A DNA stretch of 64,000 nucleotides, from NCBI GenBank assembly GCA_021234155.1, contig JAJEKV010000032.1:3539835-3603834 (forward strand), in the 5' to 3' direction. The DNA is from Isoetes taiwanensis (lineage: Eukaryota; Streptophyta; Lycopodiopsida; Isoetales; Isoetaceae). Below the pieces are notes generated by a model. It was not told the origin of the DNA and made no database searches. It was given only the letters and a program-made list of their open reading frames with translations. The position numbers were made by a program, and so were the translations under genes. Position 1 is the first letter of the stretch, and each line of letters starts with the position of its first letter. Positions 6,876 through 56,519 of the stretch are shown here, in pieces.

Positions 6876-8366
6876 ATGCCAGGGCTGCCCACTCTCTCTG
6901 ATGCTATTTGATCTGAACAGTTGGAAGATTGGCTTGCTGAACACAGGGGAACTGAAGCTCAGCCCCTGCATCACATAATTCGCAAGCTCATATATGCTGA
7001 CGACATGGACCTCTTAGGCTACACTCCAAAGGACATGCAATGCCATTTGGATGCTCTAGAGACTTTTTGCTGGTTTACTGGCATGCGGGTTAACTTGGCC
7101 AAGACTAAGGTGGTGTTCGTCTAATCCCTGCGCCAGCCAAGGCCTTCCTCCTTCATTTACTAGGGCCAAGCTGTGGAGGCAGCTCCCACCTGCAAGTATT
7201 TGGGAGTAGAGTTACTGGGACACTTCCATTTGGTTGCACATCACAGCAGGCTAGAAGGCATTGTACGCCATGCAAAACAACAGTCACAAAGCAGAGTTGT
7301 ATGCCTGGGCCATCAGTGGCACTTGTTCAGGTCCTTGATAGAGCTTGTTCTCTTATACATAGTCGAGGACTGAGGCCCGGTAATATCCCTTGCCACCTGA
7401 AATAACCTGAAGCAGGTGCAGAAGGCTTTCTTCAGCTCGAGCACTTGAGATGAAGTCTATAGTTCCATATCAGATCCTGCTGCAGGAGACAGGTTTCTTG
7501 CTCCTTCAAAGGGCCACACTAGATTGCTATATCATCTAATTTCAAAAGGTGGTCAATCTGGGTGATGCTTGTCTCTCCAATCTTGCTTATGTCGTAGCAC
7601 TGTGTCTACAGTGTATTAAAGCTTGCTAAGGAAAAGCAACCTGAGTGGTTCTCCTGATGGAATGTGCAGGCATACAGGTGCGTACAAGTCCAAGTTGAGG
7701 AAGATCACTATCACTTGAGGCAGTACCTTGATGCCTACTTCCTTAGCAAATTGGGATGTGGGTGCTCTCGAACAAGTTAAAAACGGCACACTACTAGCAG
7801 CGGCAGATCAATCCCATGCTCACAAGAGGTCCACAATGCTACATATGTATACATTTGCCCATGAAGAAGCACAAACTAATACCTTCCACTCACATGAGTG
7901 CACAAACCGCCTCGCATTGAGATAGGTAGATGGACTCGGGGAGGCATGTGAGGGGGATCATCCAAAGTTGCCAATAGGGAGCCATTGAATATGAATGCCA
8001 TGCCCTGCTGACCTTGTCCAAAGATTCGATCATTTCTTGTCAAGATATGTTCAGTTAGTCCCGCCTAATCAGCTGCTATATGTGTTATTAGACATAGCCT
8101 CTGTGGTCTTACTGGGATCATATCCTCAAGAGGTCATGGACACACACACTCAAATATGTCCTTCGGCATGGTATTGAATTGTACCCTCATATATCATTGC
8201 ACAGTTTGTCAGTATCCTTATTACTGCCAAAGTTTTTCCCTTGAAAACCCTTCGTACAAGGTTTTTTTAATCCTAACAATAATACGCTTGCTATTCTTTT
8301 TATTTGAGCCCCATAGACTATTGGTCTCCGTGGACGATAAAAAAAAACATTCCATTCCATTTCTCT
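6876..8366 (+). mobile_element. 5'-truncated LINE-A copy with RT remnant
   Basis: The copy begins inside the RT domain, with text matching GCPLSPTLF-type motif B. It contains LIYADDMDLLGYTPKD (YADD, motif C) in an open stretch at 6,921-7,124, then the CKYLGVELL segment near 7,190. Several stops and frame changes follow. A C-terminal block (PCPADLVQRFDHFLS region, 7,995-8,177) matches the end of the other copies. It ends with the shared 3' terminus 'ggtctccgtggacgataaaa' and an (ATTCC)n tail. It is dead. Confidence 0.8.
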
Positions 8367-22842: not shown

Positions 22843-22983
22843 GGCTGGGTTCACATGCACCTTCACGACCATCACCATCATGTAAAAGGGCTCACCGTTT
22901 TACGTCCACCATCGCCCACCATCGCCAATTTGCACTGGGCAAAACAGGCGCTTCTCCGGCGATGGTTGCATATGAATCGGCCC
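22843..22983. mobile_element. Diverged MITE with TAA flanks
   Basis: The left end GGCTGGGTTCACATGCA and right end tgcatatgaatcggccc are imperfect inverted repeats (12 of 17 positions). TAA lies on both sides (22,840-22,842 and 22,984-22,986). This fits a PIF/Harbinger-type MITE, distinct from the one at 3.5 kb, though the right flank overlaps telomere-type repeats and the TAA there could be coincidental. Confidence 0.5.
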
Positions 22984-23006
22984 TAAACCCTAAACCCTAA
23001 ACCCTT
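22981..23006. repeat. Interstitial plant telomere-type repeats
   Basis: Three and a half copies of CCCTAAA follow the MITE directly. Similar text flanks the pair on each side ('ttccactgactttgt' before, 'ttccaccgactttgt' after). The insertion or repair event therefore duplicated about 20 bp of target. Confidence 0.75.
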
Positions 23007-23161
23007 CCACCGACTTTGTTTAGCAACCTTTGACATAAAACATTTGTTATTATTAGACAAATGCTGGATGATTATTCTTCACATATTAGAGGAAATTATT
23101 TCTGCCGTTTACTTTCCTTATTTTCCTTTTCTTATGGGATTTTTTATGGAGGATTGCTGGG

Positions 23162-23190
23162 GGGTGAAAGTATGCTGGTGGGTATCAAAA
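23162..23190 (+). repeat. Left terminal inverted repeat of the 7.7 kb transposon
   Basis: It begins GGGTGAAAGTATGCTGGTGG, continues GGTATCAAAA, and runs into a 24 bp perfect palindrome. It mirrors the right end with one mismatch in 29 bp. Confidence 0.9.
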
Positions 23191-23212
23191 GCATGCGTCC
23201 GGACGCATGCTT
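23189..23212. repeat. 24-bp perfect palindrome at the left TIR
   Basis: The half-site AAGCATGCGTCC is followed immediately by its exact reverse complement. It lies at the inner edge of the left terminal repeat and is absent from the right end. It may be a transposase-binding or cruciform-forming site. Confidence 0.8.
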
Positions 23213-23525
23213 ATAGCAGGGTTTTAGCCCGCTTAAAGCACCCCTGCTTTTGCTTAATTTGGGGTGCTGATGGGTGTAACTGCCCGTCAATTTTTTTTAC
23301 GCCCTTCATGTACTAACACGTCCACCTCACGAATGAACCGTTAGGAAAATGATTGTGGGTTTTTGGCTGGATTTTCGCGCGAGTGGTGTGGTAGTGCGTT
23401 GCAAATTGATTATTGCCGTCATGGGCGCGAAAATTCTCCCTCCAATTCACTTATCCTCCCTCTCTCGGGGAATTTCATGGCGCCCACGAGGCCGGCACGG
23501 AGGCAATCACACGTTTAGCATTGGA

Positions 23526-26500
23526 TTTTCGGCCCGATGAATCCCAATACGGTGTTCAGATTTGTTGGATGTCAATGCAACACGGGGAAATATCACGTGA
23601 AGATCCGTTTCCTCGCAATTTACAAGAAATTGGATGCAACGAAAGAGAGAATACAGATTACGAATAAGATGAAAAGGGCGGTTGAGCGGGAGGATCTGAG
23701 CATGAGACGCAGGCAAGAAATAGCCAAGCAAGTAGTTGATTACTTCAATAAGCTCACCAAAAAGCATTCACCCGAACTCAAGGCTGATGTGATGAAGAGG
23801 GTGGTTCATCACCACGAAATGGAAATCTCAGAACCTGGACTTTTGCCAAATCCAAAGGAGTGCAAGGCAGCGGGGTGCTGCTCAACAACTTGAAACAGAC
23901 AATGGCAGCCACAAAGAGGCAAAGGAACCATGATATTTGGAGAGCCAGAACCTCAACACTTGTGATGGCTTCTTCCACAAATTCGAGATGCAATTCCACT
24001 ATGGCAGGGCTGTTAGGTACATCTATTTCTTGCCTTCATGCCTGTGCTTCTTCATGCTTTCAAGTATCTGCTGAGTGATGCTGGCTGGGATATGTTCATT
24101 GATACATGTGCAATATTTCTTATGATAGGTTGCATGAGGTCAACAATTGCAACTGCTGCATTAAGGAAATCGGAAGCCTTCCTTGGAAATGGTCCGTGGT
24201 CTGCTTTCCAAAAGAGGTTGAGGTGCGATTCTCTCACCCCTGCTTGCAAGCAAAGCATAACAGAATTCTGGAAAGAAAACAGCTGAGTCTCTCCTTGCAA
24301 GAAAGATGTTGTGAACACTGTTGGAGAGTCAGGCTTCCGAATTTCTTATCCCTTGCACCTTATGGAGGTCACACAGGTATAAGTTTCCATACAAACTTTT
24401 TTTTCTGCTATTATTGCATAAATATTTCTAACCAAAGGCCACCATTCACCAAGCACTATATCAACAATACAAAAAGGCACATCCTGAACACCCTGTTTGC
24501 TTAAAGGCTTTCGAGAAGTTGAAGCCTATTTATGTAAAGAAAGTATCAGAAAGGGAAACCTGTTGTTGCATATACCATATGAAGTTGGAGTATGCCAGGG
24601 TAGCACTGAATGCATTAAGGTCGTAAAACCGGATTCCATGGTGAAGAGTGCAAGTGCACTGCGAGGTCCGTGGACACGGTGAGAAGTGTCACGGCCAGCC
24701 AACATACGTATGACTCAACCCAACCAGCGAGCTCGAGGGTCTGTGGTTTGCAAACAGAGCTGGCGAGGGTGAAGAATGGTATAAACATGACTGCTTGATG
24801 CAGACATGTCAGAAGTGTGGCATAAAAAGTCTTCCTATATGTCCAAGAGAAAGAGAGAATCACGAGTTCTTGCTTGAATGGAAGACGTTTGAAAAGGTAA
24901 TACTCTCTTTATTGCTTGCTGAAGCATGCTGATATGTGTCCGTCATGTCTTTGAATATCGCTTTTTGTGCTTTCGGCTTTACCGATCTTCTTTTTTATGC
25001 TCTGGACCTTGTTCTGATTCCATTTGGAGACGTAAGAAGTTGGTGGAGTTGCGGCTGCGTTACCAAGGAAGTGCCAGGTGGCAGCAGAAAGAAAAGATCC
25101 AATGCCACCAAGAAGGGAAACAAAAGTAAGAAGTCCAAGGTAGCTGGTGGGACACAGCCTGAAGCTGCAGCACAAGTTGAGAAGAAGGGAAACAAAAGTA
25201 AGAAATCCAAGGCAGCTGGTGGGACACAAACCAAGCCGCAAAGACAAGATGAGACCTCAAATGGCAAGGGGAAAAAAAAGAAAGGACCAAAGCCAGTCCT
25301 TAGATTGTCCTACAAGAAAACGGCAGTGAAGGCTTTCATTTCATATCTGTGTTCCACGTTGAAGATATTCGTGTCACACAATTACAGGGCTAGGTGGCAG
25401 GCCATGCAATTCAAGAGTTGCTTGGACAATATCCAAGATGGCACCATTGTTTCTGTAATTGATTTTGCTGAGAATTACAGCATCAAAATACAAAGGGAGG
25501 TTCAAAGCCAGCATTGGCACAATGACCAGATAACAATTCTCGTCCACATCACGTATAGGATGGACAACAGCTCTGGGATCAGAAAGCTATTGAAGGAAAC
25601 CCATTTTTACTTGAGTGATGACAAGCTTCATGACACTCTTTTTGTGCAACACTGTCTTAGAAAGCACAATTCATGGCTAGTATCAAATGGTGTAGAATTC
25701 TCCAGGCATATAGTTTGGTCAGATGGTTGTTCTAGCCAATTCAAATCTGCCCGACCATTCTATTTCCTACCAAGATATCACCACGAGCTAGGGAAGGAAA
25801 TAATATGGAATTTCTTTGGGACAGCCCATGGTAAGGGAGAGCACGATGGGCAAGGGGCAGTCCTTAAAGGGGCATTCACTAGAGAGCAGCTCAAGTATGA
25901 TGGAGTGAGATTTAGGGGTGCTGCTGATGCCTGTGAATTCGCTATGAGTTGGAATGAAGGTGCCAGCAACGGGGACATCAAGAGGTAATATGCTTTCATC
26001 TGCATTCATCTGCTTTTAACGTGCTTTCATCTGCTTCACAAAGTGCTTTCATCCGCTTTTATCTGGCCGCGGTAATAATCTTTGTATTGTGCCCAGACCG
26101 TATGTGAACCGCAATAGTTGTTGCCGGCTTTTTGCGTGCACACCGGTTCATTGGAAAGGATGATGTTGATAGGACAGACCGGGCCGGATTTGGGCGTGCG
26201 AGTAGAAGGGACCAAGGAAATACACAGCATCAGGACATACTTGGCCAAATCAAGCACAAGGGTGGCTCATAGAGGTTTAAGTTATTTCTGTGGTAACTGT
26301 TTGAAAGGAAACTGGTCATCTTGTGTGAACAAGCAGAGGTTAAAGAATTGGAAATATGTTACTCTAAAGCCAGAAAAGTCTACTGGTGAAGGTACTGAAG
26401 ACGAAATCGATGAGGCATTTTTTGAAGGTGATGGAGAATGGCTTAGTGGAAACATAGAGGAAGGTGATAACTTTGCTGTTGTAGCCGAGGAGGGAAATCA

Positions 26501-26801
26501 GGAGAATGCAGATTTCTATGTGGTAAAATGTGTTAAGCCGAGGCATATCCTTGACAGAATTGTCAAGGATAGCTGGGGTCAGACCTTCAATGTCGATGAA
26601 CATGTGTTGGCTGGTTTGTACTATGCTGTCCAGCCCGATGGTACTTGGGAGCTACTTGAAGACAAAGGTCTGACCTTCCAGTACAGTCATCACGTATCAG
26701 CTATCAAGTTTGAGATGAATCAGATTCCTGGCACCAACAGATTTTCCCTTGATCAGGCTACTCACCAGATGATCCTTGACAGTCTGCCATATGAAGGTTG
26801 A
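23526..26801 (+). pseudogene. Spliced DDE-like transposase gene (decayed)
   Basis: Coding blocks occur in order. They are a basic N-terminal frame (23,537-23,893), a block ending at a GT donor after 24,376, and an exon from 24,438 with KLKPIYVKKVSERETCCCIYH. A cysteine cluster (CLMQTCQKCG, near 24.79 kb) ends at a donor after 24,896. The catalytic region is at about 25.0-25.99 kb, and a C-terminal exon (SYFCGNCLKGNW...) ends at 26,801. Candidate acidic residues are the Asp in VIDFAENY, the Asp in WSDGCSSQFK and Asp/Glu in GKGEHDGQG. The family resembles uncharacterised DDE-like proteins scattered in plant and animal genomes (from general knowledge). In-frame stops at 24,284-24,286 (TGA) and 24,624-24,626, and a doubtful exon junction near 23.9 kb, suggest that this copy is inactive. 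A lysine-rich linker is duplicated (GNKSKKSK-AGGTQ, twice, near 25.12 and 25.19 kb). Confidence 0.7.
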
Positions 26802-27191
26802 ATATGCTTTGACCTAGTTGTTTTATCATTTTAACAGGTCTGTAGTTACTTGTGTACTTGTCTCAAATTTTGATCATTATGTTGGAGACAATGCTTGTGA
26901 GTATTGGAGTCTTTTAGTATTGGAAACAATGCTTGTAGTAGTGCTGTATTGGAGTATTTTAGTATTGGAAACAATGCTTGTAGTATTGGAGAGTAAGCTT
27001 GATATATATTACAGAAAATTGTACACCCAAGATTTGAGACATCTTACAAGATCACTCAATACTCAAGATAACACAAAGTAATCATGCATATATTACAAAA
27101 AAGTAGTGTACAATGGTTACTTCATGAGTCATCGAAGTCCTCAAATCTATGCTCGTCGCCAGGAAGGGTGCCCAGCAGCTGCCTTTGCACT

Positions 27192-28043
27192 TCAATAGGA
27201 GCATTGAGGATATAGTAGGCCGAGACAAGGTAGTTGTTGAGACAAGTAATCCAAAGATTGCTGAATCGCCTCCGGGGCCAACCATGCATCAGTGAAATCA
27301 ATTTGTGAGATCGTTTCCTGTACTGTATGAGAGGCCAAGTATTCCAAAGCCGGACACACAAACTTCTGCAAAAAATTGTCCTCTTCTTGCCTCTTGAAAG
27401 GCATAACAGGAACGGTTGTGTGTGCAGGGTTTAGAAACCCTTTGTGCAGGCTGTCATAAACCAAGAAAATCATACCATGATATTGAGGAAAATCCTCAAG
27501 AACAACCTTCAACTCCTTGAAAAAGAGTTGCTTTTCTGTGCTGGTTGGATGCTCGCATGCATAGCAATGCTCTTGACTATATATCTTCAAGAATCTGGTC
27601 TGCAAATCAGGGAACAATGCCTCCACCATATCCCTTGTATTCCGAAGTAGAGAAGCACTCCAAATCACAACATCAAACCTCTGCAGTGCCCACTCCACAA
27701 ACTCATGATACCCTGGTCTGCAAATGAGGTACTTACTTGCAGTTTCTTTTACAACATGGTTCGTTTGTGGTGGATGCAAGATTTTTTGGTTCATTCTCCT
27801 CTTATTTATTATGCGTGCCAAGACACCATTTATGTCAAGCACCATGCACTTCCGTCTGGGTGTCCATCCCTCGGCGTTTGCAACCACTTGTCGATGGGCT
27901 GCCGCATCGTGGCTTGTCAGGCCGGATTTGTCTTTGGGAAGTGCTATCCGGGCGTCTTTGGAAGTTCTTTGCGACCTCTTTGGACTCTGGTTTATCTTTG
28001 CTACCAGGTGATGGAGAGTGCTGATAGCCATAGCTAGATACAT
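27192..28043 (-). CDS. FCP1/NIF-like HAD phosphatase homologue, transposon cargo
   Basis: A 283-residue frame. The HAD phosphatase landmarks of the FCP1/SCP (NIF) family are in order: motif I MVLDINGVLA at about residues 67-76, RPGYHEFVEWALQRFDVVIW then SASL (motif II, ~110-134), a Lys-rich segment, and VYDSLHKGFLNP near 209 in place of the usual DDSP-type motif. Motif I normally reads DxDx(T/V); here the second Asp is Asn, so the general acid/base is missing. Related plant proteins with a DINGLL/DVNGLL motif exist (general knowledge), so this probably reflects a plant lineage rather than a sequencing error. The N-terminus is basic and Ser/Lys-rich. A splice acceptor (TTTTGCAG) upstream near 28.13 kb suggests that an earlier exon could exist, so the start is provisional. 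It lies between the transposase and the second cargo gene, convergent with the transposase (gap about 390 bp). Confidence 0.75.
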   Translation of the reverse strand: MYLAMAISTLHHLVAKINQSPKRSQRTSKDARIALPKDKSGLTSHDAAAHRQVVANAEGWTPRRKCMVLDINGVLARIINKRRMNQKILHPPQTNHVVKETASKYLICRPGYHEFVEWALQRFDVVIWSASLLRNTRDMVEALFPDLQTRFLKIYSQEHCYACEHPTSTEKQLFFKELKVVLEDFPQYHGMIFLVYDSLHKGFLNPAHTTVPVMPFKRQEEDNFLQKFVCPALEYLASHTVQETISQIDFTDAWLAPEAIQQSLDYLSQQLPCLGLLYPQCSY

Positions 28044-28527
28044 CCTTACTAGTATCTCCCTGTCCCCAATGTATGGGTGTTTCCTGGCTATCAGTAACCC
28101 GTACCAAGTGGTGACTTAGGGTCCTTGGTCTCCTGCAAAATCAAAAGTGGTGCTACAATTACCAACTGAAACTGGCAGGACATTATGCCAAGTGAAATAA
28201 GACAAGTAAAATAACTGCTTGAACTTAAATATTGGATTGCACCTTTTATATGTAATAGTTTGTTTTTGCACTTTGGTTTCTTCATTATCATGCGGGTTCT
28301 CTCACTATCTTGACTTCAGATTCGGTAAAAGCACCACTTGTGGCTGCCTTCTCCTTCTGCATGCAAATGCATATTGATCCCTAGGTTGAAACTCGAAACA
28401 AATTTTACAAGGACACAATGGGGGAAAAAACATATATTATGGTATTACACAAAAACCTTTTAACTGGTCGTTTTGGCAAGTCTTGTGCAAACAAAATTGG
28501 GCCTGAAACAAGTACATATAAATTACA

Positions 28528-30503
28528 TTAGACGGCTGGTTTTTTTCCTAGTGCCACGCCTATAGGCACGTCCTCATCAACCGAATCATCTGACTCACCC
28601 TCACTCTCGGGCTCTATAACCTTTTTGGTCCTGGACCTTGTGAGCCTTGTGATTCGGCCCACAACTTTGTTCACCTGCTTATCCACTATATTCGGGTCTT
28701 CAACATCCTTGTCTGCCCCTGCATCAACAGTGTTAGAGGAGGCCTTTGTAGAGGTTGTTGCATAATTTGGCACTATATTGTATTTCTCAACATCGTCAGA
28801 ACTACTGGAATCTGCTTTGGACCGTGTTGGTGTCTTTAGCACAGTGCTTTCAGGTGCTGCAATGTGCTGCTGACTGCTTGCCTCATGCTGTTCAGTGTCT
28901 ACAGGCGCTTCTAATGTACCCACTTCAGGAAACAAATGTGTACCTTTTTTGGCTGTTCTTGCTTGTGGAGTTCGAGTCCTTGTAGACTTGTGTCCGGGGG
29001 TCCTTTTACTAAGAGGTGTTTTCACATGCTTCCTTTTCCTGTTGCTGTCTGGAGTTGTAACTACCACCTCATCTAGGTCAATTGTCTCAACTATTTGTTT
29101 GTGTGCTGCCCCAGCATATAAGGGTTCCTGCTTGACTGTCTTCCCCAATTCCTCCACTAAGCCTGCTGGAACTGTTTCTGAGCATTCGAGGCGATTTGTG
29201 TCTTCTCCATAAGCAAACTCGAGGCGGTGACATGATATCATTGGCCACATTTTCAAATGGACTTAGGGTGTAATCATCCGGAATGCGCCCGCATGTGGAG
29301 CATCTCTCCTCATCTCCAATTGGCAACTTTGAATGTCACGGGATAGATGCTCACAAGCTGGCCAGACTCTCCTTGTAAGTTCCCTAAGCTGTTGAGATTA
29401 CGTAAATCTTTGCTTGACTTTTGCAAGTCGCACTTCATTGTTTGCAACCTCGGCAGCTATAGTGGCCACTGTTCAACTATCCCCTCATCTATTGGGCCAC
29501 CCCCATTTCAACAAGGGCTTTGAGCATGTACTACGCCATGTCTTTCTCTCTCCAAGCTCAATTAGCTCGGCCAGAGGCACCAAACATCGGGACTGTGGAT
29601 TGCTTGAAGGCGTGAGATGTTGTCTTTAATTTTTCGCAATTTCTCTTGTGAAGCCAAGAAGAAAGCTCCCTTAACGAGGACCGGACAACTAGCTCCTTCT
29701 TGGAGACTAAATCAGCCCTTTGCGTGTCTAGGGTTTCTCGCAAATCTTTGCCGCGGGACTTCCGGCGTGATATGTTCTCCCCATAAAGCGTTTTGTGTGT
29801 AGGCTGTTGGGCCGCGGTGCAAAGCTCCTAATGGACGGCCTCCCTTCTAATTTAATACCAGTGCCTCCGGCCCGGCCTTTCGCTATGCTTTTCGGGTTTG
29901 TGGTTTCTTTGAGATTTGCTGGCCTCTGCTCGCGCTTCTTTGGAGCCTTGCTTGCCGGTTCACTTTTAACCTTGCTGCTGTAGGCTCTACTCTTTGCTGC
30001 AACTGCTGCCCAGTTAACCTTGAACTTCTGTGGATCCTGCTTTGCTCTCAGGCAGTTATTGAATGCAAATAGGTATGATACTGTCTTTCTAACTTCTCTG
30101 TTCTTCAATCCGTCCGGGTATATTTTGCTCAGAAGCTCTATCAGAGCTTCTTCGTGCTCTGGCCTCACCTTGTCAATGGAAGTTTTGCCAGGAATGACCC
30201 CGTTGGTATCCCAAACTTCATTGTACTCTGCTGCAGATATGAGATCTGTTCGAAATTGAGAGGGATGAACGCCCTCGTTTGGCAGACCTGCATACGCATG
30301 GAAGTCTTCTTCGGTGCGGCAATCAGCCAGGTCCGGTCTTAAGGGAACGTTTCTTCTGGCCTGGAAGAATGCAAGAAAATCGAATTAACAGGGTTGAACC
30401 CTAAACCCATTGAAATTTTGTTTTGTTGCTTTTTGCTTACCCGGATAATGGGTTCCGTTGGAATTACTGCTTGAGCGGGCGGATCAATCACCTTCTTTAC
30501 CAT
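28528..30503 (-). CDS. Spliced charged nuclear-type protein, second transposon cargo
   Basis: Exon 1 is 30,503-30,441 (21 codons, MVKKVIDPPAQAVIPTEPII) and ends at a CGG|GTAAGC donor. Exon 2 begins at 30,360 after TTCCAG, in phase, and stays open to 29,728. It contains the segments RPDLADCRTEEDFHAYAGLP and RPEHEEALIELLSKIYPDGL, then a basic Lys/Arg-rich tail. Further downstream are ERCSTCGRIPDDYTLSPFEN (29.3 kb) and a last block (29,256-28,528) with ETIDLDEVVV, resembling a SUMO-interacting motif, Thr-Pro-rich basic stretches and an acidic C-terminus (EPESEGESDDSVDEDV). The ERCSTC frame and the last block differ by one frame near 29.22 kb, indicating a frameshift or an unseen intron. I do not recognise the family. 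DNA-binding accessory function is inference only. Confidence 0.55.
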
Positions 30504-30504
30504 G

Positions 30505-30580
30505 GTTGATTCGCGGGTTGCTTGGCCGGAGTAGAGAAAGCGCAAATTCGCGGGTTGCTTGGCCGGAGTAGAGAAAGTTG
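30505..30580. repeat. 37-bp tandem duplication upstream of the cargo gene
   Basis: Two nearly perfect copies of 'ttcgcgggttgcttggccgg' plus 'agtagagaaag' lie just upstream of the ATG at 30,503, in the presumed promoter or 5' leader. Confidence 0.8.
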
Positions 30581-30826
30581 GGGAAGAGAGATTTGGAAAA
30601 ACACAAATTCGAAAGTTCGTTCGTTTGTCTAGTGGTTCCAGATTGCAGGGGTCGCATTCATTACCGGGGGCGGCAAACAGGTCATGATTGTATAAACGGG
30701 TACCGGCTAGACGAATAGACGGGCAGAATATAGGTGGTACTATATAGGTGAAGGGTGGGAAAAAAGTGTATGACGGGTGGGAAAAAATGTATTTTGGGTG
30801 CTGGTGCTGGTGCTGGCGTCGCGTTT

Positions 30827-30855
30827 TTTTGCTACCCACCAGCATACTTTCACCC
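30827..30855 (-). repeat. Right terminal inverted repeat of the 7.7 kb transposon
   Basis: Read on the minus strand it begins GGGTGAAAGTATGCTGGTGG then GTAGCAAAA. Just inside, GGTGCT trinucleotide-type repeats and two GGGTGGGAAAAAA blocks form an asymmetric subterminal region. Confidence 0.9.
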
Positions 30856-31060
30856 TGGGGGCCGTGGATGGAGAGCATATTCCATAAATTGTACCTCATT
30901 AACGCCTCATGATTTTTTGCCAAATAAAATAAAAGCCAAAACCTAAGGTCTCGCAGCATTGCCATATTAAACCGGGTATTAAACACGCAACTTTTACAAA
31001 ACCCTGAATCACAGACAGCTCGAATGAGCCATCTGTTCTTGCTGCCCAAGAATCACCGCA

Positions 31061-35387: not shown

Positions 35388-38300
35388 TCAACTATTTGAC
35401 AGCTCATCTGTATCACCAATTTCCTCATCATTCACTTCCTCATTTCCTACAATACGATAATTATCATCGTCTGTCTCTCTGTCATCTCCTTGCGCCTCAG
35501 CCGAACCTTCAATCCCCTCTCCATTTATCTCATCATACACTTCCTTAGGGCTTTCTCCATCCTCTTCTTCTAGCTGATGATGCTCATCAGAGGAGTTTAC
35601 TAATTCGGCATCTTCTACCTCCCAATCCTCTTGACCTTCATTCTCTTCTTGTGAATCACTGCTGCCTTCCTGCTCATATGCTTCCTGCAGAACTCTTTTG
35701 TCCGTTGCATTCATACATAGCATGCTCCGGCTACCTTCATGAACATTAGTGCCATTATTAGCTTGAGACGCATATCTTTCTGATGATCCATCTTCTGGGC
35801 TAATACTGCGACTATCAGTTACATTCCAATTCCTAGAGCCTTCAACAGCAATGGGTGGGCTATCAGACTCTTCTCCGAATCTAACTCATCCTCTGAATCC
35901 TCTTCAGCAACATCCTGCACCATTGCATTAATACTGTCAAAAAATTTCCCACAAAAAGAAGAAAACTAGGTAAATCCCAAAATAGCAATCATGACCCAAA
36001 GGGGTCCATGAGAATAAAGATAAGCAAAAGTATATGTCGTAAGGTAGGCGGCCAGGCAAGTAAACATCCACAAAGAATTTTCCCGATCCATGTGAATGTT
36101 CATGTTATAACTTACAATTCTAGATACACCAGCTTTCCTATGTTCGGTTTCCATCCGCTGCTTCTGTTCAGGAGTATATGCTACAGCAGCGTCGAACGAC
36201 ATTAATCTCATGGCAACAGCAGCAGTCGTGTGAGGAACCCAGACAGGACTCTTTCTTACACCTCCCGATGCTTCTTTGACACCCAATTGTTCAGCTGTTT
36301 CATAGGAAGGAGATAACCAATCGTGATGAACCGCACTTTCGAGTTCAGTAAACGCCTACAAATAAACATCAGTCCATTAATATGTGATGTGATCTTCGCT
36401 TAAGTAAATTTCAATACCAACCTGCAAAAGGTCGCTCGGACAGGACACAACCTTTATGTTCTCATACCATGCAGTCCTGGTATCCTCACTCCATGTATCT
36501 TTGAGAGCTTCTCGTGGAACAGAAAGCTGGTAAGCAGAAAAATATAATTAAAAAAGACAACCTTACTGTTTACAAGATTACGAAGTGGAAGTTCAAAAAA
36601 AAAGGTGTTGATTTTCAAAATGACATTCATGTCTTTTTAGAAACTCAGGCATTCAAGACTATTTTCTTAACTCTCTATTCTCAAGTAGCAATTTCTCTAG
36701 CTTATGGTCACAACAAAAAAGAAAAACATGATATAACCAAAGTGATGCACAAAAGCTCACTACCTCCACTTGAAGCATTAACCATTTTAATAGCTGAAAC
36801 CTGCCAGGCAGAATATCAATTGGCCCACACATGTTTCCATCCAATTGCTCACATGTGTGACGAGAATATTTCATATCCAATGGAAGAGTTTTATGACACA
36901 CTTCACAATGCTGTTCCTTTGGCCAATATAAATTATGGCAACTGTCACATGCAAACAAAACGTCTGGCTCTTTTCTTACATCTGAAACTAAGGCTTTCAA
37001 CATATGTCCTGAACTCAAGCACTGTAACCAAAGCCATGCATCAAACTCTGTATATCGAATAAGGGCCTTTTTCTTTTCAGACATGGACTTCCTTTTCTCC
37101 GCCAAAACTGTACCAACTTGCCATGGATCGTCTTCTGAGCCAGAGACAGGACTATCTTCTTTGAAGCTCACAAGAGACGCTTCAGATGACATAACAGAAG
37201 CACCAAATTGTTCTGCATTTTTGCTCCTCAAGCTTTCTTTAAATGCACTCTCTATTTCCTTCAGCGAGGTAAAAAGATGAGCTTCCCGACACCCCCGAGT
37301 GTCTAAGGCAGCCACCAAGGCATCAAATCCCTGCAATTTTAGCAGACATAGGTAAAAATTGTAGTTGAAATATGCCTAGGTTATAACAACCTACTTACCT
37401 CTTCTGTGTCAATGACTTCCCAACGTCCATCAGAATGAGATTCGAAGTAAATTCTTCCTATGGCAGGCTCTTGGAGACTACTTCCTACAGTAAACTGCCA
37501 ATATCGGTTGTATCGGCGATCCACACCTAGTGGTAGGGATCTTATAGTATAAAGCTTCTCTGCCCGTAAACGTATATCTGTTCTTACTTGAGCACGGGAT
37601 CTTTCACAATCAACAGAACCTAAAATTGCTGAACTGCATTCTGGAAAATCATGTGTCCCACCTCCCCTTAAACTCGCCTTTTTCCTTGTAAAATCATCAT
37701 TGTCAAATTCTTCGTTTATACCCAAAGCATTCAATGAATTGGGAGTCCCCTCTGCTTTTCCCCTTAAATGCTCCTCTTTGATCCGCCGCTTGTCAAGTTG
37801 AGATTCCTCCCACAGCTGCCGTTTGAATGCGGAGGCTGCAGCATACCGTTCCTGCAGATAAAACAAAAGGTAAAAACAGGCAACAAATAAAGGACACTTG
37901 CCCCAATCCCTCAGACAGGCATAAAATGACGGCTCACCTCAATACTAAGACGAACTGCATTTCCTTCATTTATAATATGGACCAAGGCTGTGAGAGCAGC
38001 AAGCCTCTCCTCAACACTTAAGCTACCATATTCTCCCTCCATCAGACCTTGCACCCATGCTTCTCCCACTTGACTTTCATCGATCTCTCCCTCCACAGCA
38101 TCAAAATTATGACTTTTTGAAGACACAATTGCTCCCTCCTCAACATCTCCACCTGGTTTAGCTTTGCGCTCAGATCCATCACTATCCGCATCTGCATCTG
38201 CATCTACATCATCAACATCTTGGTCATAATCTTCATCCCGTTCAGGTTCTTCGGTGTCGTCTACATCTTTGAAAGTCTCTGCATTATCATGAAGCCCACT

Positions 38301-41300
38301 TTGGAACACATCTATCCTTTCTTTTGCAGCTAGCAGAATGTCTTCTTCATCAGTTGGGTCTTTTCTAAATTGTGCACGCACGCAATATGTTGATGGAGCT
38401 ACTCTTTCAAACAGATTTGTGTCTCTAGAAAGCGCAGCAGATATTGATGCCTCTGGTGTTTTTGTTGTTGATAAGTCACGCAGCCCCGATTTCTACAATT
38501 AGAAGTTCCTGGTTAAACAGGCATTTATTATACAGGTTAAATAGTTCAACAACTACCTGAATACGATCTGCGATTTGAAGAACAGTCAATCCTTTACCAC
38601 CTTCTAAAGAAAGGACATGGAATGCCGCATACTTCACAGTTCCAGGAGCCAAGCGATGCTGGGACCTTGGAGGACGGCCACAATTCCTACCTCGCATTAG
38701 CGCCACTGCATTTACTGCAGCTGCGCCAGATCGCAAGTTTGCCACAGCATCATCACCAGCATTAACCTGAAAAATAAACAGAATTGATGTCATGTAAACT
38801 GAATATAGAAGTTACTGTAGAAGTTACTGTGCAAACCTCTGCCAGGTCACTACATTGATCAGCTTGAATCTTAGCCTTCTTCCATTTTGGCCCAAATCCA
38901 GCAGCTAATGCAAACTGTCTTAGTATCTCTGGCCAGGTCAAAGGACTCAAGTTTCGGCCCCAGTCTTGAATGTCAAATCCCCAAGCATAAGCCTGAACAC
39001 CACTCCAAGTTAGGACTCATGTTGCACCAATTAAAGCTATCTAAGAACCTGCAAGCATGAATAGAAATGAGAATATACCGCTTCAACAATTTCGGGATGA
39101 CCACCAGCAGCAACAGAGATCACATGCTGACTTCCCCCGGCTGCAGCTTGTGCAGCATCTTCTACATCCTTAACAAGGGTTTTTAGAAGAGCAATATGTA
39201 TCTCGCTTATAAGCCTAGAATCCTGTATGCCATAATACATCAAGACAATTAGAAACATCAACAGCTGAGATGTCATGATATGAGAGGACCATATACTCAC
39301 ATAATCATGCAAAGCCTGTACAAACTCGTCTAATGTGAATGGCCATAGACCGATGGTATCTGCAAATGTGGTAAGGAACCTCCAAACCTGCAGAAATAAG
39401 AAACACAGTTAAGCAAATGAAAACTTAGGCATCATGCCCAAGAGATGTAGTCATGTTATACCATGAACAAATTGAAAATATTCTCATTTGAAGTAGACCA
39501 GGGAGGAACTGTCAACACTTTTCTCATCTTCACAGCAGATGGTGGAAACTTCTTCAAACTAACTGCAACACCGAAGTAAATACTTGACTATTAGTAAATA
39601 AGATGCATGTAGAGCTAATCCCAAGAACATAGTCTAGTACACAAAATAGAGGGATGGTTCATAGATCTGAGTCAGAAGTTCAAGGCCAAGATCCAAAGTT
39701 TCCAAAACTTTATGGATGCCTTAACTATCATCTTTAGCCATTGGATCACATTGTATGCCACACACAACTTTCTGGTTGCCTCAGAATTGGCTGCCCTAAC
39801 TTGCTCAGCAGCCAGTTCTCCTATTTTAGAATTGCAATCATATTTTCTTTCAATATCATATATCAAAATACATTGACAAAGAAAAAGTGACCCATCTTTC
39901 TAGAAGCATAATACTCGGGATTTAAACTGCTGACTTATCTCAAAATTCTTTATCCTACTTTCATTATCTGCAAAGTGCACCCTGAGAAACTCTTGCTATG
40001 TAAGGTATGCTGAGACAACAAGGATCTAAAAGCACTAAAAAGCACCAAACTTGGTTAATGACTTAATACCTTGACTGGAATCTGGTGGAGGTAAAATGCC
40101 CTCCAAATCAGTAGAGACCAAGCCCGGTACATATACCCCTAGCTGCATCAACTCCAAATGTTCATCATCCATGAATCCTGTGGACACTTTTGCCAATTTC
40201 TTTGCTGTAGCACGCTCATATGCAGCTTTTGCTTTTGCAGCTTCCTTTTCCTTTTTTGTTTCTTCTTTTCTGCGCAAGATCTCAATCTGAAGTAGACAAA
40301 GAATTAACATTTAAAAGATCAGTTGCACATGTTAAAGAATAAAGAAGTTATACCCGTCTTTGTTCTTTCTTCAGTAATTTTTCCATGCGCTCATATTCCC
40401 GTTTTTGCTCTCGCTGAAGGCGTTCATTCTTCTTTAATTGTTCACGATTAAACTTTTCTAACTCCTTTTTCTGTTGCTCCTCTCTCTGAAATTTGATAAC
40501 ATACTTTAGAGAAAACATTCAGAGAAAAGGAAAACCAAAAACGTTACCTTTCGCCGTACAGCTTCCTGCTTTTCCTCTTCTTTTCTCATTCGTTTTTCAT
40601 TTGCTGCAGACCTTCCTTCATCAATCTGTAACTGGGTTGATAAAAATACATCAGACCGATAATTCTTCTACATGCCAAAGAATCAGATGGTACCTTGCGC
40701 TTTTTATCAAGCCTTGCTTCCTCTTGTTCATGGATGCATTTGTCTGTTTCCTGGTGAGAATTACGATTATATGCAGCATCCGAACCCCCATCATCCAATC
40801 CAAGGTGACCTTCATTTCCATAATAAGGTCTTTCTGAAAAGGACTTTATCCTGGACGATGTCGCTATTTCAGAAAGCCTATCAAGTCTGGAATATGCGCT
40901 TCTCTCATAAAATTGAGTTCCTGTAGGATGTTCAGGCAAAAACTGATGCTCACATACAACTTTGGATCCCGACTGAGCACCAGACCCTGGAGGTTTTTGT
41001 TTCAATAACGTGGATGTCTGAAATGATTCCAAAGAATACCCCTGTAAATATAGAACACGTGTTGCCAAATATAAATCATTTCTCAATCAACTCTTCAGTA
41101 AAATTGGCAAATATTTGATGAATTTAATTGGATATTTTCCTTCAGTTGTTTCTGAATTACACTCCATTCCCATTTCGGATGCTGATCCTTTAACCACTTC
41201 AAACAAAAATCTTCCCACAAAAAGAATGTGTTTGATCTTCTTAATGAACAGTTGATTATTCTGTGCTCTAAACTAAATTTCCAATTCTTTTCCAGCTCAT

Positions 41301-42293
41301 AATTTCTAATCCTGGAGCTATCACCCATAAAATGCACTTAATCCTGTAAAAAACACAAAACAATATCCAAGGTCTGAATGTCGAACACCACTCACTTTGT
41401 TTGCTCTGCCATCATGTCTGCCTAGAGACTTATGACGTGCGGCCCCATTTCCAGCTTCAACAGATTCTGATAATAAGTTCAAACCCAAAGAAGCGGTCAG
41501 ACTAGAAATACATGATTACATTTACCAAAATTTTGCATAGATGAAAAAGACAATACCTATTGGCATCCCAAAAGCTCCTGGAGGAAGTGGGTCAAACTCA
41601 TAACCTAGCATTGGCCCATCTTCTCGTAATGGCTCCCCCAGCTGGGATTCAACCAAAGCAATGGCAGATGTTTCAGCAGCCGAGCCAGGCTGCTTCCATG
41701 GCTCTATCCAAGGTTGGTGTCTGAGTTCTGCTTGTGATTCATAGTAACGCTGTTCGACTGAAGGTTCAATGTGTGTTTCTGTTTTAAAGAATGTCTGAGA
41801 GCTTTTCCTAGAAGTTCCTTCTGTATCCTTCTTAACTGCCTTCTTTGAATGAGGGGGTCTCAAATCAGGTTCAGCATCATCATGATAATACTCACTTGTT
41901 TGATCAGCATCAGCCATTCTGTATGCATTATTAGGATGGTACTCGTTAGATCCAGGTGAGGACTCCACCTTTGGTCTTTTTACAGCACCTTCTTCATTAA
42001 CCTTTCTATCCTTCAACCTTCGATGGCAAAACCACATTCTCAGTTGCCTATCTGTGAGATTAAGCTGAGCTGAGAGTGCTTCTCTGACATCATCAGAAGG
42101 ATACTTATCGTCTGCAATAACATGCAAAAATAAATATCATCATCCTTTTACTTCAAGAGATCAAGATAAAGAAATAAGGAAAATCACCAGCATAGACTCT
42201 TTCCAGAGTTTCGAGTTGTGAAGGGGTTTTCATTTTCCTTTTCGGATGCTTACTCTCCGGAGTTGCACGTTTGCTCTGTTCTTCCCACTCCAT
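35388..42293 (-). CDS. Homeobox-DDT domain protein, RLT-type ISWI partner
   Basis: An 18-exon gene model of about 1,550 codons. Exons by my reading: 42293-42188, 42111-41557, 41466-41396, 41041-40694, 40631-40548, 40485-40354, 40286-40070, 39562-39462, 39387-39301, 39222-39079, 38992-38837, 38766-38557, 38492-37938, 37851-37399, 37330-36764, 36526-36422, 36355-36116, 35914-35388. Junctions are GT-AG and keep phase. A homeodomain spans exons 1-2 (KRKMKTPSQLETLERVYA ... RQLRMWFCHRRLKDRK). A charged coiled coil follows (exons 5-7), then the DDT domain (PPWSTSNENIF ... LWPFTLDEFVQALHDY), a WHIM/HARE-HTH-like region (GTVKYAAFHVLSLEGGKGLT) and RSLPLGVDRRYNRYWQF. The C-terminus is very acidic. Plant RLT1/RLT2 proteins of this architecture act with ISWI remodellers in the nucleus (established). 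In the last exon the frame shifts after EDELDSE near 35,870-35,876, and one base seems missing. Start: the ATG just before the homeodomain; no upstream in-frame alternative was examined. Confidence 0.9.
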
Positions 42294-44999: not shown

Positions 45000-46830
45000 A
45001 TTAGAGCTCCTATTTTTCCTTAACGGATCTGTCGGAAGTTAAAGGTAGTTTACAGGGCTTGCGATGGGTTCTTGCATTGCCGGATTTCCTGTTGGGCACT
45101 GGCAACAGGGATTTGCTTCTGCAGGGTGTTGGCCGGGCAACAAAGCTTGGAGAAATCATTTTATTGTCGGTCTTGAACAAAGCTTGGAGAAATCATTTTA
45201 CTGTCGGTCTTGAACTGTAACTGCTAAAGCAGCTGTAAACTTGCGTTAATCTATTACAACCAGTAGCAACCTGTACCCACGAAATTGTCTTTCCACTTTC
45301 CATTCCGAAATGTAGGAAAGTTGCAGGCTTGTCATGGAGGGTGATTCAAATCCACAGGATGGTGTGAATCATCCAATTTTGTCTTTGTCGTCTTCTCTCA
45401 TTACGCCAAAGATTGATGCTTCTCATCCAGGTCTTGTTGTATATACAGCTGAGCCAGGAGGCTTTCTCTGCCTAGGAGTTAGTTGCCAATGTGATACAAA
45501 TAGGTACAGAGGACCACCGGATAGCCGCATTGCTCCGCATCCTGATGCGGCAACTTATGCATTCTTTGTTTCTAATGATAATGCCATATATGGAATGGGA
45601 ACAATTAGGTGTGTCAGTTTCAGAGTTATATACTTTGCGGTCTCGCATGACTCTTGCAAAAGCTTTATTAATTCAGGAGATTGGCCAGGTGGATGCTGTT
45701 ATAAGGCATGAGCAATTTGGGTTAGCTATGAACTAGTATTTAATATACATTTTCTGTTTTGTGCTTTCAAGTTTTGATGTATATATGTGAGTTTTGATGT
45801 GGACATATGGTTTAGTACTTGCAAGAGCACATAGACATTGGAGGGCTCAATTTGGTGCATTGCAACAAATGTGGTTGTTGGGTGGCTGAGTTGAGGTTTC
45901 TTTAATGCAATGTATAACAGTTTTGGAGTAATGTATAGATGTGGATGTTGTGGATCTTTGTTGTTTGTAATTGAAGCCATTTTACTTGACTAAAAGTTTG
46001 AATTGTGATGTAGGATTGTGATGTATGTACTAACTTGTGGAATTTTTTAAGGGCTACGGCCACCTAGGTATAGCAATTATCCCATATTTGGAACAATGGC
46101 TATGCCCGAATGAGCATGGGTATCTTGCTGGGATTCAACTCCCTAGGCTCATTGTGTTTTGTCTTTTGCAGATTATTTCTCAAACTTTAGAACTATGGAT
46201 GGTGGTAATCACTCTGGTGTCACTGAGTGCAAATGCTATGAGTGACGTCAAGAGTGATTAACACCATGCATATGCTTTTTGGAAATTCGAGGATCTATGT
46301 GTCAAAAAGGATCATATGCAGACATTCTTTGGTTGGGATAGCTGCTATGTTCATAGAGCATGAGCATCTTGTTGGGGTTCAACCCCCCAGGCTCTATTCC
46401 ATTAATTTTGCTGTTGTATGAGAAACTGTAATCTTTATACGTATAAGAGATCGCCTCTTAATTTAATCAAGATAGAACCATTAGATAAATGGTAATTTAT
46501 GGGGTGCATCAATGGGAGGGTGTTTGACTCTATCTTGACTTGCAATGAAGGGTGTAGAGGTTGTCTGATGGAATATTGTTGATAATATTCCTCGATCCAA
46601 TGGTCATAAAAAATTATGAGACACCCCAAATGCTAATACATCCAAAATCAAACATAACTAAAACTAGTACCCGATGTTGCAGCCATAAGTACGTTCATCC
46701 ATGAAGTACGATGGAATGGCATGTATATGGCAATGCAAGTTTTTGTTTGATTGGTTTGTAGGTACCAATGGAAGTGTTGGTTCAATTGGCTTATTTGAAT
46801 ATTAACTAATATGTGAACTTGTTTCTGGCA
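45000..46830. other. No gene seen; short duplications
   Basis: A 37 bp direct duplication lies at 45,141-45,177 and 45,178-45,214 ('caaagcttggagaaatcatt'). A frame at 45,334-45,711 (MEGDSNPQDGV...) has no recognised domain and is not called as a gene. Two blocks near 46,105 and 46,360 share 'gagcatg..tatcttgctgg' and 'ttcaac.ccc.aggctc', a diverged repeat. Confidence 0.45.
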
Positions 46831-46864
46831 GAAAGGCGAGAGTCTCAACTCTATTGCACCAGAT

Positions 46865-47707
46865 ATGGATCTCATTTTTCTCATGGAGACATGGGAGCAT
46901 GCAGGGCACAGATTACCGGACCTCCCAGGCTATCTGCATTTCTCGGTGTTCAATGAGTGCACAGGCAAGCGAGGGCATGGCGGTGTTGCCTGCTACTACC
47001 GTGCAACCTTGAGGCACTCAGTCTCGTTGCACAAAACAGACAGGCACAATCGCTACTTGTGGGTGCGCGTGCAGCATGACAGTGGCGACACTCTCCTCAT
47101 AGCAGCATGCTACTTTCCACATGACGAGAGCAACTTCTATAACACTCATTTGGATGTGGATCGATTGGAGCCCTATGTCGATCTATATGATGACATACAG
47201 CAGCACAAACAATTGGGCAGGGTTATGTTGCTTGGCGACTTTAATGCACGCACAGGAGCCGAGCAGGTTCCAAAATTTAACCCCCTGGAGGAGGACGTCT
47301 TGCAATTGAACCCCGCAGAGGTGGCTTGGTCAAGGATATCAGATGACAGCCATATTTCGCGCTATGGCAGGCAGTTGTTGTTGCTGGGTAGTATCTTTGA
47401 CCTGGTTATTTGTAATGGGTTGGCACAATGGCCGTCTTCCAGTTGCTACACTTGTAGACAGGAGAACCAAGGGGGCGGGTCCAGTGTGGTGGATTATCTG
47501 CTGGTTGAGGAACGGGATCTGCACCTGGTTACTCATTTTTCCATCGGGACGCATTACTTTCGGGACGAGGAAGTAGATTCGGACCACCGGCCCCTGTTCA
47601 TGCATCTCCATTGGGAGGCTTCCCGTGCATCTGCTGCTTCAACACACCGGGTGCCCCACCGCGCTGGACTACGACCCGTCGCGAGGGACCTATGCCCACG
47701 CGCTTGA
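46865..47707 (+). CDS. LINE-A AP-type endonuclease ORF (fragment of ORF2)
   Basis: A 280-residue open frame with exonuclease-endonuclease-phosphatase hallmarks. FLMETWE is at about residues 5-11, RVMLLGDFNARTG near 120 with the catalytic Asp/Asn pair, SVVDYLLVE near 220, and VDSDHRPLFMHL near 240 with the catalytic SDH. The domain nicks target DNA for target-primed reverse transcription. The N-terminal beta strand (usually NxRGL) is missing or altered, so the first Met is likely internal to the original ORF2. The frame is lost beyond about 47.65 kb. Confidence 0.8.
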   Translation: MDLIFLMETWEHAGHRLPDLPGYLHFSVFNECTGKRGHGGVACYYRATLRHSVSLHKTDRHNRYLWVRVQHDSGDTLLIAACYFPHDESNFYNTHLDVDRLEPYVDLYDDIQQHKQLGRVMLLGDFNARTGAEQVPKFNPLEEDVLQLNPAEVAWSRISDDSHISRYGRQLLLLGSIFDLVICNGLAQWPSSSCYTCRQENQGGGSSVVDYLLVEERDLHLVTHFSIGTHYFRDEEVDSDHRPLFMHLHWEASRASAASTHRVPHRAGLRPVARDLCPRA

Positions 47708-48159
47708 GCATGATCTAGCGGGACGGGCCGCAACTCCCCACACTTCAAGAGCAATGCTGCTACCGACTCAACCGCTGCTCGACGGGCCGAAAGATGCTTT
47801 GGGAGAGGCAGCGCCACGGCGAACCACAGGCACTACCACCTTTCCCCGCAACAAATGGTTTGATGATGAGTGTCGGGAGCTCAAACGCACACTCCGACAA
47901 GTCACTGATCCCATCTCTCGCCCACAGGCCATCAGTCAATACCGCTCCTTTCTCAAGAACAAGAATGCCAGATACCTCGCAGAGCATCAAGAATGATGTT
48001 TGGTCTCGACCGCACCCCCAGACATTCTCGGAGAAGGGTCTTGAGCAAGCCCGCACGACCCACGGGGAACATCACCCGGAGCAATGGGTACAGTGACTTT
48101 GCAGCGGTTTGTGACGACAGCATTTCGGGGGCGGGCACCATCCCTCCTCCACGATAGGC

Positions 48160-50095
48160 ATGGCTCTAGTTATCACAGAAGGGGATGTTATCATGGGCCT
48201 ACAACGTCTAGCTAATGGGAAGGCAGCAGATTTAGATGGCATGCAGGCAGAACTTCTGAAATGGGCTGAGCCTCCACTGGTGCCTGTCCTCACCGCATTA
48301 TTCAATAAAGCATTGCGAGAAGGCTTCCCTACGCAATGGACCACTAGCAGAGTGGTGCCCATATACAAAGTAGGGGACCCTCAATGCCCGGCCAACTACC
48401 GTACTATTATGGTCAGCTCTCTCTTTGCAAAACTGTTAGCTGGCATCCTTGAGCAGCGGCTGACAATATGGGCAGAGGAAACGGAGGTGCGAGCTCTTAC
48501 ACAGGCAGGTTTTCGGCCCAGACATTCCACCATTGATCATATCTTCACTCTGCACACATTGATTGAGGATAGCAGGAATCGCCGGCAGAACCTCTACTGT
48601 TGTTTCGTCGATTTTGCAAAAGCGTTCGACCACGATTACTCGTAACAAGCTCGGGGACGATTGCGCATTTGGGGACCCCCGGACTTGCGGAATGCAAGAT
48701 ATAGGTCTGACGAGGCATGCTCAGCCAGATCACATCACCCGATAGCCGTGTGAATCGTAGCATTGGAGTGCGTCGTGGGGTTGCCCCTCTCCCCCACACT
48801 CTTTGGCCTATACATTGATCATTTGGAAGATTGGCTCTCTCGAGCATGGAGCTGGCAAGCACATCTCATGCATCACACAATCCCGCAACTCATATATGCC
48901 GATGATGTCAACCTCATGGCCTATACTCCGAGGAGGACATGCGGTGTCACTGGATGCTCTTGACACTTTTTGCCAATTCACCGGCATGCGAAGTTAACTT
49001 GGCCAAGACTAGGGTGTCTTTGCTAGTTGCATCGTCCGCCGACCAAGGCTTCCCACCTTCACTTACCAGGGGCAAGAGGTAGAGGTGGCTCCGACCTACA
49101 AGTACTTGGGGATTGAGTTCTCAACTACCACCCATTGGGATGCGGCTATCAGGTTGCGGGTCACGGCGGGTTGGAAAGTACTATATGCCATGCAGAACAA
49201 CAGCCACAAGGCAGAGTTGTACGCCTGGGGCCACCAGTCACATTTGTTTCGGGCCTTGGTTGAGCCGGTCCTTTTGTATGGAGCAGAAGTGTGGGGCCCG
49301 GTGATATCCCTCAACACCGGAATGACCTCGGCGGTGCGAGAAGGCCTTCTTGGCACGGGCCCGGGGTGAAGTCCACAGTTCGCACCGCATCCTACTCCCG
49401 GAGACAAAGCTTTCTACCCCTTCAACGGGCCGCATTGGAACGCCATATCGTTTACTTCCAAAAGGTGGTCGCTATGGCTGTACACGCTTGCCCCATCTTG
49501 CTTTGGCACACGCCGATGGGTCCCCAACGCCTGAAATCCTCATTGAAAGACAAGCAAGCTTCGGTGGTTCTCACGCTGGGGGGCGTCGCAGCAAAACGTG
49601 CGCGCTGTGTCGGGGACAAAGAAAGATCGCGAGGCACTTAAACCGCACTGGATGCTACTTTCCTTCGCCAAGCTTTGGGATGCAGAGGCTCGACGCGACG
49701 TTAAGGCGGCACACTATCGGCAGACAAGTCAATCCTAGGCTCACAAGAGGCCCACACCAACTTGTACACCCAAACCGCCCATGAAGAAGCGCAGACTTAT
49801 AGCCTCCATTCAAGCGCGGTGCACATCGCCTCCGCATTGAAGCAGGCGTTGGGCTCGGGGAAGCACGAGCAAAGGCTTTGCTGTGTTGCCGCCGTGGCGC
49901 GATTGAGGATGAATGTCATACCCTCCGGATGCGCGGCATTTGCCCATATCCGAGAGAGGTATGTTCGACTACTAGTGCCTGGCCAGCCGTTGCATCAGTT
50001 ATTGACTACGGCGTCAGTGAGTTTGTTGGGGTCATACCTCCAGGAGGTTATGGATGCACGGACCCGTTTGTGTCCTACGGGACGGTCTTGAACTG
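48160..50095 (+). pseudogene. LINE-A reverse transcriptase and C-terminus, broken
   Basis: The block at 48,160-48,645 has LANGKAADLDGMQAELLKWA and CCFVDFAKAFDHD (motif A), then loses frame. GLPLSPTLFGLYIDHLEDWL and LIYADDVNLMAYTPRR (YADD) follow in 48,763-48,963, and YKYLGIEFSTT in 49,085-49,369. The C-terminal part (49.35-50.1 kb) is split over several frames and ends with the CCRRGAIEDECHTLRM cysteine/histidine block. At least four frame changes are needed, so no active RT is encoded. Confidence 0.85.
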
Positions 50096-54960: not shown

Positions 54961-55379
54961 AAACATATCTTATCTAGAATTTAGATAAGAATGTGCAATG
55001 CACAATCCTCTTCTTCTGTTTTGGAGCACTGTTTTTAAGATGTAATTTGCCCAACGAGTCCTTATGCAAGCATTTGATATTCTGCAAATATTAACATTAT
55101 TACATTATATGTTAGTACTAGGAAACTATTGTTTGAAGACTTAGTCTGGTTCATTGGTATATGATGATATCCTTCTAGGATAAAGCCCATCATTAGATTG
55201 AAGCAGCCATCTGGCTAATGGGTGTCTCATAACTAATGAGATCCATATTTTTTGTCAGTTTGGTATTATACATATATCCAGTATTCTAACAGATACATAA
55301 CATGATAAACAATATCTATTGTACTCAATGATAAAATAATGAGATTGAGTCTATAGTGGAATGCCATACCTTATACATC

Positions 55380-56360: not shown

Positions 56361-56519
56361 TGTGTCTCATAACTAATGAGATGCATATTTTTTGTCAGTT
56401 TGGTATTATACATATATCCAGTATTCTAACAGATACATAACATGATAAACAATATCTATTGTACTCAATGATAAAATAATGAGATTGAGTCTATAGTGGA
56501 ATGCCATACCTTATACATC

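Follow-up and report, generated by a model that had tools for sequence, protein, structure and literature searches.

Do genes that lie beside a transposase inside a plant DNA transposon serve the element, or are they passengers that it once took up? This question is raised by a 7,694-bp element in the genome of Isoetes taiwanensis, located at positions 23162-30855 of the window (the whole analysed stretch of 64,000 nucleotides on contig JAJEKV010000032.1) and starting with the bases GGGTGAAAG. A sequence-only reading had described terminal inverted repeats (TIRs) matching at 28 of 29 positions, a spliced transposase-like gene and two genes on the minus strand, and had taken the whole for a DNA transposon bearing extra genes with several exons, including one that is FCP1/NIF-like. 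This description is borne out by the TIR match, shuffled controls, target site duplications (TSDs), homologues and domains reported here. Judging from comparisons between copies and families, both extra genes are most likely the element's own, and the element probably represents a transposon lineage with a fixed three-gene module, two dedicated accessory proteins of which would serve the transposon.

The element and its transposase

The left end and the inverted right end share a 29-bp TIR with 28 identical positions, and the similarity continues to 36 nt at 89%. Inverted 14-mer seeds separated by more than 60 bp number 20 in a 9-kb region, compared with none in 19 of 20 mononucleotide shuffles and two in the remaining one. 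With TIRs and fixed-length target duplications, the element is a DNA transposon of the cut-and-paste type. Its spliced transposase gene faces two convergent genes on the opposite strand, the NIF gene being nearer and the RING-like gene farther away. In the window copy several reading frames are broken, for which assembly error is probably part of the reason. The transposase exon limits given here are predicted.

23158-23161, no strand: left TSD, TGGG, same letters as 30856-30859
23162-23190, plus: left TIR, GGGTGAAAGTATGCTGGTGGGTATCAAAA, 28/29 to the right end
23519-26801, plus: transposase gene of several exons (frames, homologues, tblastn and fold; frames broken in the window copy)
23519-23890, plus: transposase N-terminal frame
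about 24017-24381, 24432-24626 and 24714-24900, plus: further transposase pieces
24933-25985, plus: transposase core frame, catalytic Asp codons at 25461, 25722 and 25845 (conservation examined)
26118-26801, plus: transposase C-terminal frame
27122-28150 (approximate), minus: NIF/FCP1-like HAD gene (PF03031; limits read from frames and the copy alignment)
27330-27851, minus: NIF domain (PF03031, E 1.7e-17)
27441-27464, minus: motif LVYDSLHK (DD in copy L012)
27816-27845, minus: motif LDINGVLA (DxN)
28528-30503, minus: RING-like/coiled-coil gene in window positions (frame of copy L014, Pfam scores, second family)
28528-28530, minus: TAA stop of the RING-like gene
29291-29302 (CSTC) to 29182-29193 (RLEC), minus: RING-like pattern, broken in the window, clear in L014
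30361-30440, minus: GT-AG intron of the RING-like gene, second exon from 30360
30441-30503, minus: RING-like exon 1 (MVKKVIDPPAQ...)
30827-30855, minus: right TIR, 28/29 to the left end
30856-30859, no strand: right TSD, TGGG, same letters as 23158-23161

For the transposase core open reading frame, 108 homologues were found, and tblastn of seven of them, with the majority sequence derived from 13 copies as target, supports a multi-exon structure. The predicted model of the core is RNase H-like with an integrase-like fold, and the transposase is of the DDD/E type with a modelled RNase H fold. A Foldseek search with this model gave no match at E <= 0.001, nor did the A1 profile match any PDB sequence. 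Pfam scans delivered no family that fits the transposase; rve, the Gypsy-type integrase core, found no match in these scans to E 1 / E 0.1, although the fold is integrase-like. Ginger elements combine an rve-type transposase with 4-bp TSDs. With P0001 as query, the NCBIfam scan yielded a chance-level match only and the viral contigs a single pattern match that was not confirmed; the search of PHROGs gave no match.

Recurrence of the three genes in the genome

The genome that was searched comprises 1,658,258,908 bases on 1110 contigs. The first 239 bp of the element gave 815 first-look candidates (such numbers are not copy counts throughout), and the best 40 scored, the window included, match at 96-100%. 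From the other 39, we fetched 20 as 9.9-kb stretches and two as 9-kb stretches starting inside the element. Both ends are present in 14 of the first 20, and all 14 have perfect 4-bp TSDs of varied sequence. The transposase core, the NIF gene and the RING-like gene, each over at least half of its compared length, occur together in 13/22 loci. Thus the recurrence of ends, duplications and cargo that the sequence-only reading had proposed as a check was found, and not the outcome it had named as refuting. Among the incomplete loci, L014 retains too little of NIF (0.45) and L017 too little of the transposase core (0.20), L015 and L019 have lost the transposase core and kept both extra genes, and L020 is without the RING-like gene. 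L018 has the transposase, no RING-like gene and almost nothing of NIF, and L021, L023 and L024 retain the 5' end only. The copy alignment comprises 13 of 15 elements, L015 and L019 being omitted as internally deleted. We rejected the idea that the 5'-end matches of about 96% are short non-autonomous elements, as L025-L030 are near full length, although L021, L023 and L024 match at the 5' end only.

A profile search of the genome with PF03031 led from 3261 first-look candidates to 151 matches: a top group of 33 (142-196 bits), some with scores in between and a large class of 60-85 bits with several alignment lengths. Three low-scoring loci were fetched (L041, L042 and L043). L041 is a separate element whose 30-bp TIRs (L041:121-150 and 7448-7477) are perfect and whose TSD is CAAA; it shares the start GGGTG with the first family and has its transposase, NIF and RING-like genes arranged and oriented as there. 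Identity to family 1 over aligned residues amounts to 60% for the transposase core, 44% for its C-terminal part, 32% for NIF, 29% for the RING-like protein and 37% for the N-terminal part of the latter. In every gene segment the proportion of synonymous differences (pS) between both families is saturated (0.81-0.85) and that of nonsynonymous differences (pN) is not (0.27-0.50). L041 also contains a perfect 89-bp palindrome arm pair (L041:6595-6790) and, in the frame upstream of NIF (L041:4600-4939, minus), a weak retropepsin-like stretch, perhaps a fragment of a nested retrotransposon.

Co-location was examined among the matches listed for each gene. With the 5' end of family 2 as query, 476 candidates were obtained, the best 40 scored at 83-100%; a convergent NIF, among all 150 listed, lies beside 8/40 of these ends (3.9-4.1 kb away in seven cases and 11.5 kb in one) and beside 1/40 family-1 ends. 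The family-2 transposase core yielded 13,377 first-look candidates, the best 150 of which range from 100 down to 56% identity and represent several families, and the RING-like protein of family 2 yielded 2085, the best 120 scored from 100 down to 34%. The pair tests employed 90 of the 150 listed NIF matches (33 high-scoring ones were tested apart, and 27 partial or other matches, including FCP1-type, were left out) and 112 of 122 RING-like matches, without ten overlapping or second pieces. A convergent NIF within 6 kb was found at 14/150 transposase places, and 46/150 are part of 48 convergent transposase-RING pairs. RING-like and NIF genes form 17 pairs on the same strand. At the distances tested, none of the three pairings occurs in another arrangement, and chance would give about 0.1-0.2 pairs per pairing in any arrangement (arithmetic). 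The NIF matches in the RING-NIF pairs are 540-546 bp (12), 522 bp (3) or 534 bp (2) long, and the paired RING-like proteins reach down to 35% identity to that of L041. None of the 33 high-scoring host NIFs adjoins a RING match. Besides, high-scoring host-type NIFs are clustered at 22.9-23.03 Mb and 26.0-26.8 Mb of G000:C1018, which suggests local duplication of an SCP-like phosphatase gene.

The RING-like and NIF frames might be parts of one gene with a single spliced transcript, which would make this a two-gene element. Both lie on the same strand, 0.4-1.1 kb apart in 16/17 pairs and 5.6 kb in one, and a protein-like stretch between them could be an extra exon. In the copies aligned, a TAA stop comes after the RING-like frame, and we consider a joint gene rather unlikely.

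Broken frames, selection and the capture alternative

No copy was shown to have intact coding capacity. In nine main-group copies (L009-L014, L016, L017 and 23162-30855 in the window), CAG and CTG are retained in 60% and 63% of cases, compared with 80-89% for six control triplets. The replacements are mixed and often create CG (CGG, CG, CGA, CGT, CGC; CCG, TCG, ACG, GCG), and variation is 0.184 within CHG versus 0.056-0.060 at a distance of at least 3 bases. By type, changes affect 5.2% of sites as reverse transitions, 4.5% as deamination-type changes, 4.4% as transversions and 4.6% as deletions. Ordinary decay as the sole cause of the broken frames was rejected, since the changes concentrate in CAG/CTG and are of mixed types. 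Deamination alone would lead to C-to-T and G-to-A. The assembly was made from nanopore R9.4.1 reads polished with Illumina data (PMC8566536), and CHG methylation is linked to transposon silencing (PMC8514461). Much of the apparent decay in family 1 probably reflects miscalling of methylated CHG in nanopore reads, which polishing with short reads could not mend within repeats. Our literature search found no description of this exact CHG nanopore error. Should this explanation hold, the copies carry methylation and are less damaged than their sequence suggests. Other frameshifts within repeats of this assembly may be false for the same reason.

Selection within family 1 was assessed with CHG and CG sites masked, on gene segments readable in one chosen copy each. 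Fixed differences between the main group and two subfamilies of two copies each comprise 19 nonsynonymous and 11 synonymous changes (omega, the dN/dS ratio, 0.54) and seven of either kind (0.31). Their frequency is lower at coding sites than elsewhere (0.0114 vs 0.0195; 0.0052 vs 0.0108). Changes private to single copies gave omega values of 0.72-1.31 by segment. For the fixed differences, the ratio is below 1 over all segments together and for NIF alone (0.31 and 0.30). These counts are small, and the comparison between families carries the argument.

Gene capture is frequent in plant transposons, and an ancestral element could have taken up two host genes once and carried them since without any service in return. 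Such a history would suit L018, which has a transposase without most of the extra genes, and the three copies reduced to their 5' end. It is at odds with the finding that all three proteins are constrained even where synonymous divergence is saturated, with the single arrangement in all pairs found among the matches listed, and with L015 and L019, which kept both extra genes despite the loss of the transposase core. In addition, the protein-database search revealed no close host homologue. We regard passive capture as improbable. The sequence-only reading had left it side by side with a role in the element's own biology; as the trio is conserved across diverged families, the latter is favored.

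Several points weigh against a dedicated module. The case draws on sequence from one genome. L042 is a host FCP1-like gene without element genes, and around L043 no transposase or RING match was found within 3.8 kb. Taken by itself, the main segment of the RING-like gene gives no sign of constraint within family 1 (omega 1.73 from six changes and 0.68 from three). Its finger scores 20.1 bits as zf-RING_2 in L014, under the cut-off of 27.3 bits, and in family 2 (L041) Asn replaces one His ligand. The NIF tree, finally, has long branches and a small sample of host NIFs.

As to the surroundings, a short telomere-like CCCTAAA run lies just outside the left end of the element (22983-23005). Read by eye, the window contains frames like endonuclease/reverse transcriptase of the long interspersed nuclear element (LINE) type at 46817-48645 and a reverse transcriptase-like gene at 53129-57320. 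A multi-exon gene at 35388-42136 (minus) resembles a homeobox-containing chromatin-remodelling partner, which we presume to be perhaps the nearest host gene.

Two putative accessory proteins and their possible role

One extra gene holds an HAD domain of NIF/FCP1 homology, as judged by PF03031 scores of 64 bits in the window (E 1.7e-17), 74.4 in L012 (E 1e-20) and 78.2 in L041 against a cut-off of 21.8. The nearest solved relatives are UBLCP1 and SCP-type C-terminal domain (CTD) phosphatases, with a best match of about 21-26 bits. UBLCP1 and the SCP/dullard-like phosphatases share the NIF/HAD domain with the element protein, which differs from them by DxN in place of DxD and stays below the NCBIfam cut-offs as dullard-like and as HAD-IIID. 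The DxDx(T/V) catalytic motif of NIF/FCP1-type phosphatases is absent: motif I has the sequence DxNGVL both in the window and in 17/17 family-1 loci where it was found (of 22), and is likewise DxN in L041 and L043, compared with DxD in all 11 host NIFs sampled. The later DD motif is kept in L012 and L041 and reads YD in the window. Could the protein be an active CTD-type phosphatase that shifts phosphorylation of RNA polymerase II (Pol II) in favor of the element? The clear domain and its nearest solved relatives would fit. The second Asp of DxD is, in turn, the acid/base residue of HAD phosphatases, and its replacement in all these loci makes CTD dephosphorylation doubtful. We consider this activity very improbable, and the altered Pol II CTD phosphorylation suggested by the sequence-only reading finds no backing here.

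In the protein database, neither the family-1 NIF query (597 candidates) nor the RING-like one (7996 candidates scored) gave a match at E <= 0.001; these searches required shared 5-residue words, and distant relatives may escape them. A tree separates the four element-type NIFs (window, L012, L041 and L043) from 11 host NIFs with 98/99 support, which is compatible with, yet no proof of, a single origin of the former. The label 'host-type' given earlier to both genes is thus not upheld. L043 carries its NIF, with LDMNGVLLK, beside a different upstream frame (L043:1308-3451, minus), and its 465-bp match length recurs in 11/150 listed NIF matches. The longest single frame of the RING-like protein comprises 432 amino acids with a RING-H2-like pattern in L014, and the protein has a charged tail. 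A RING finger has eight zinc ligands in RING order. The best Pfam match of the finger in L041 is Prok-RING_1 (E 0.015), also below cut-off, and NCBIfam offered nothing for this protein.

Kolobok elements have TTAA as TSD. VANDAL elements are Mutator-like, with another transposase and TSD, and their VANC protein is not known to be NIF or RING-like. With 4-bp TSDs, a DDD transposase and a size within 2-9 kb, the present lineage is perhaps Sola-like, the nearest superfamily by these features. Sola elements are described to have a DDD transposase, 4-bp TSDs and usually 2-9 kb, and to occur in a moss; Sola2 in amoebozoa can bear the extra protein Fanzor1 (PMC10741241, PMC3627910). The TSDs found here are not AT-rich, in contrast to those of Sola2, and no NIF or RING-like gene is named for Sola in the passages cited. 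KolobokP is a eukaryotic DDD/E lineage likewise marked by a second enzyme gene, which is a His-Me finger homing endonuclease (PMC9587614). VANDAL is also a plant DNA transposon with a non-transposase protein that serves the element, engaged in an arms race with methylation, and VANC may be regarded as the nearest functional precedent (PMC10398659); its role is known, whereas here a function is inferred. A limited literature search, with Repbase Reports outside its scope, found no transposon with NIF, FCP1 or RING genes.

We infer that both accessory proteins act in trans on behalf of the transposon. The RING-like one would associate with chromatin as an accessory factor and might be a ubiquitin ligase whose target is a silencing or repair factor of the host, and NIF without its acid/base Asp may bind phosphorylated partners, such as a CTD-like tail, more than hydrolyze them. 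Together they could counteract silencing or help the element to transpose, VANC of VANDAL being the analogy. A RING-like protein whose tail is charged and such a NIF are more easily reconciled with a pair of this kind than with a CTD phosphatase.

Conserved genes other than the transposase occur in few DNA transposons, and VANC has shown how transposons fight silencing. If the kept pair is functional, NIF and the RING-like protein would represent a new counter-defence or transposition cofactor in a lycophyte. NIF genes borne by elements can constitute a distinct repeat family, one whose members annotation readily takes for host phosphatases. More tentatively, we envision an undescribed plant transposon lineage whose spread might depend on an obligate module of a RING-like E3-type protein and a catalytically altered NIF 'phospho-reader', with the module acting against chromatin silencing or linking transposition with Pol II. 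If true, this module would be old, with about 30% identity and one gene order kept, and would explain the abundance of the lineage in Isoetes.

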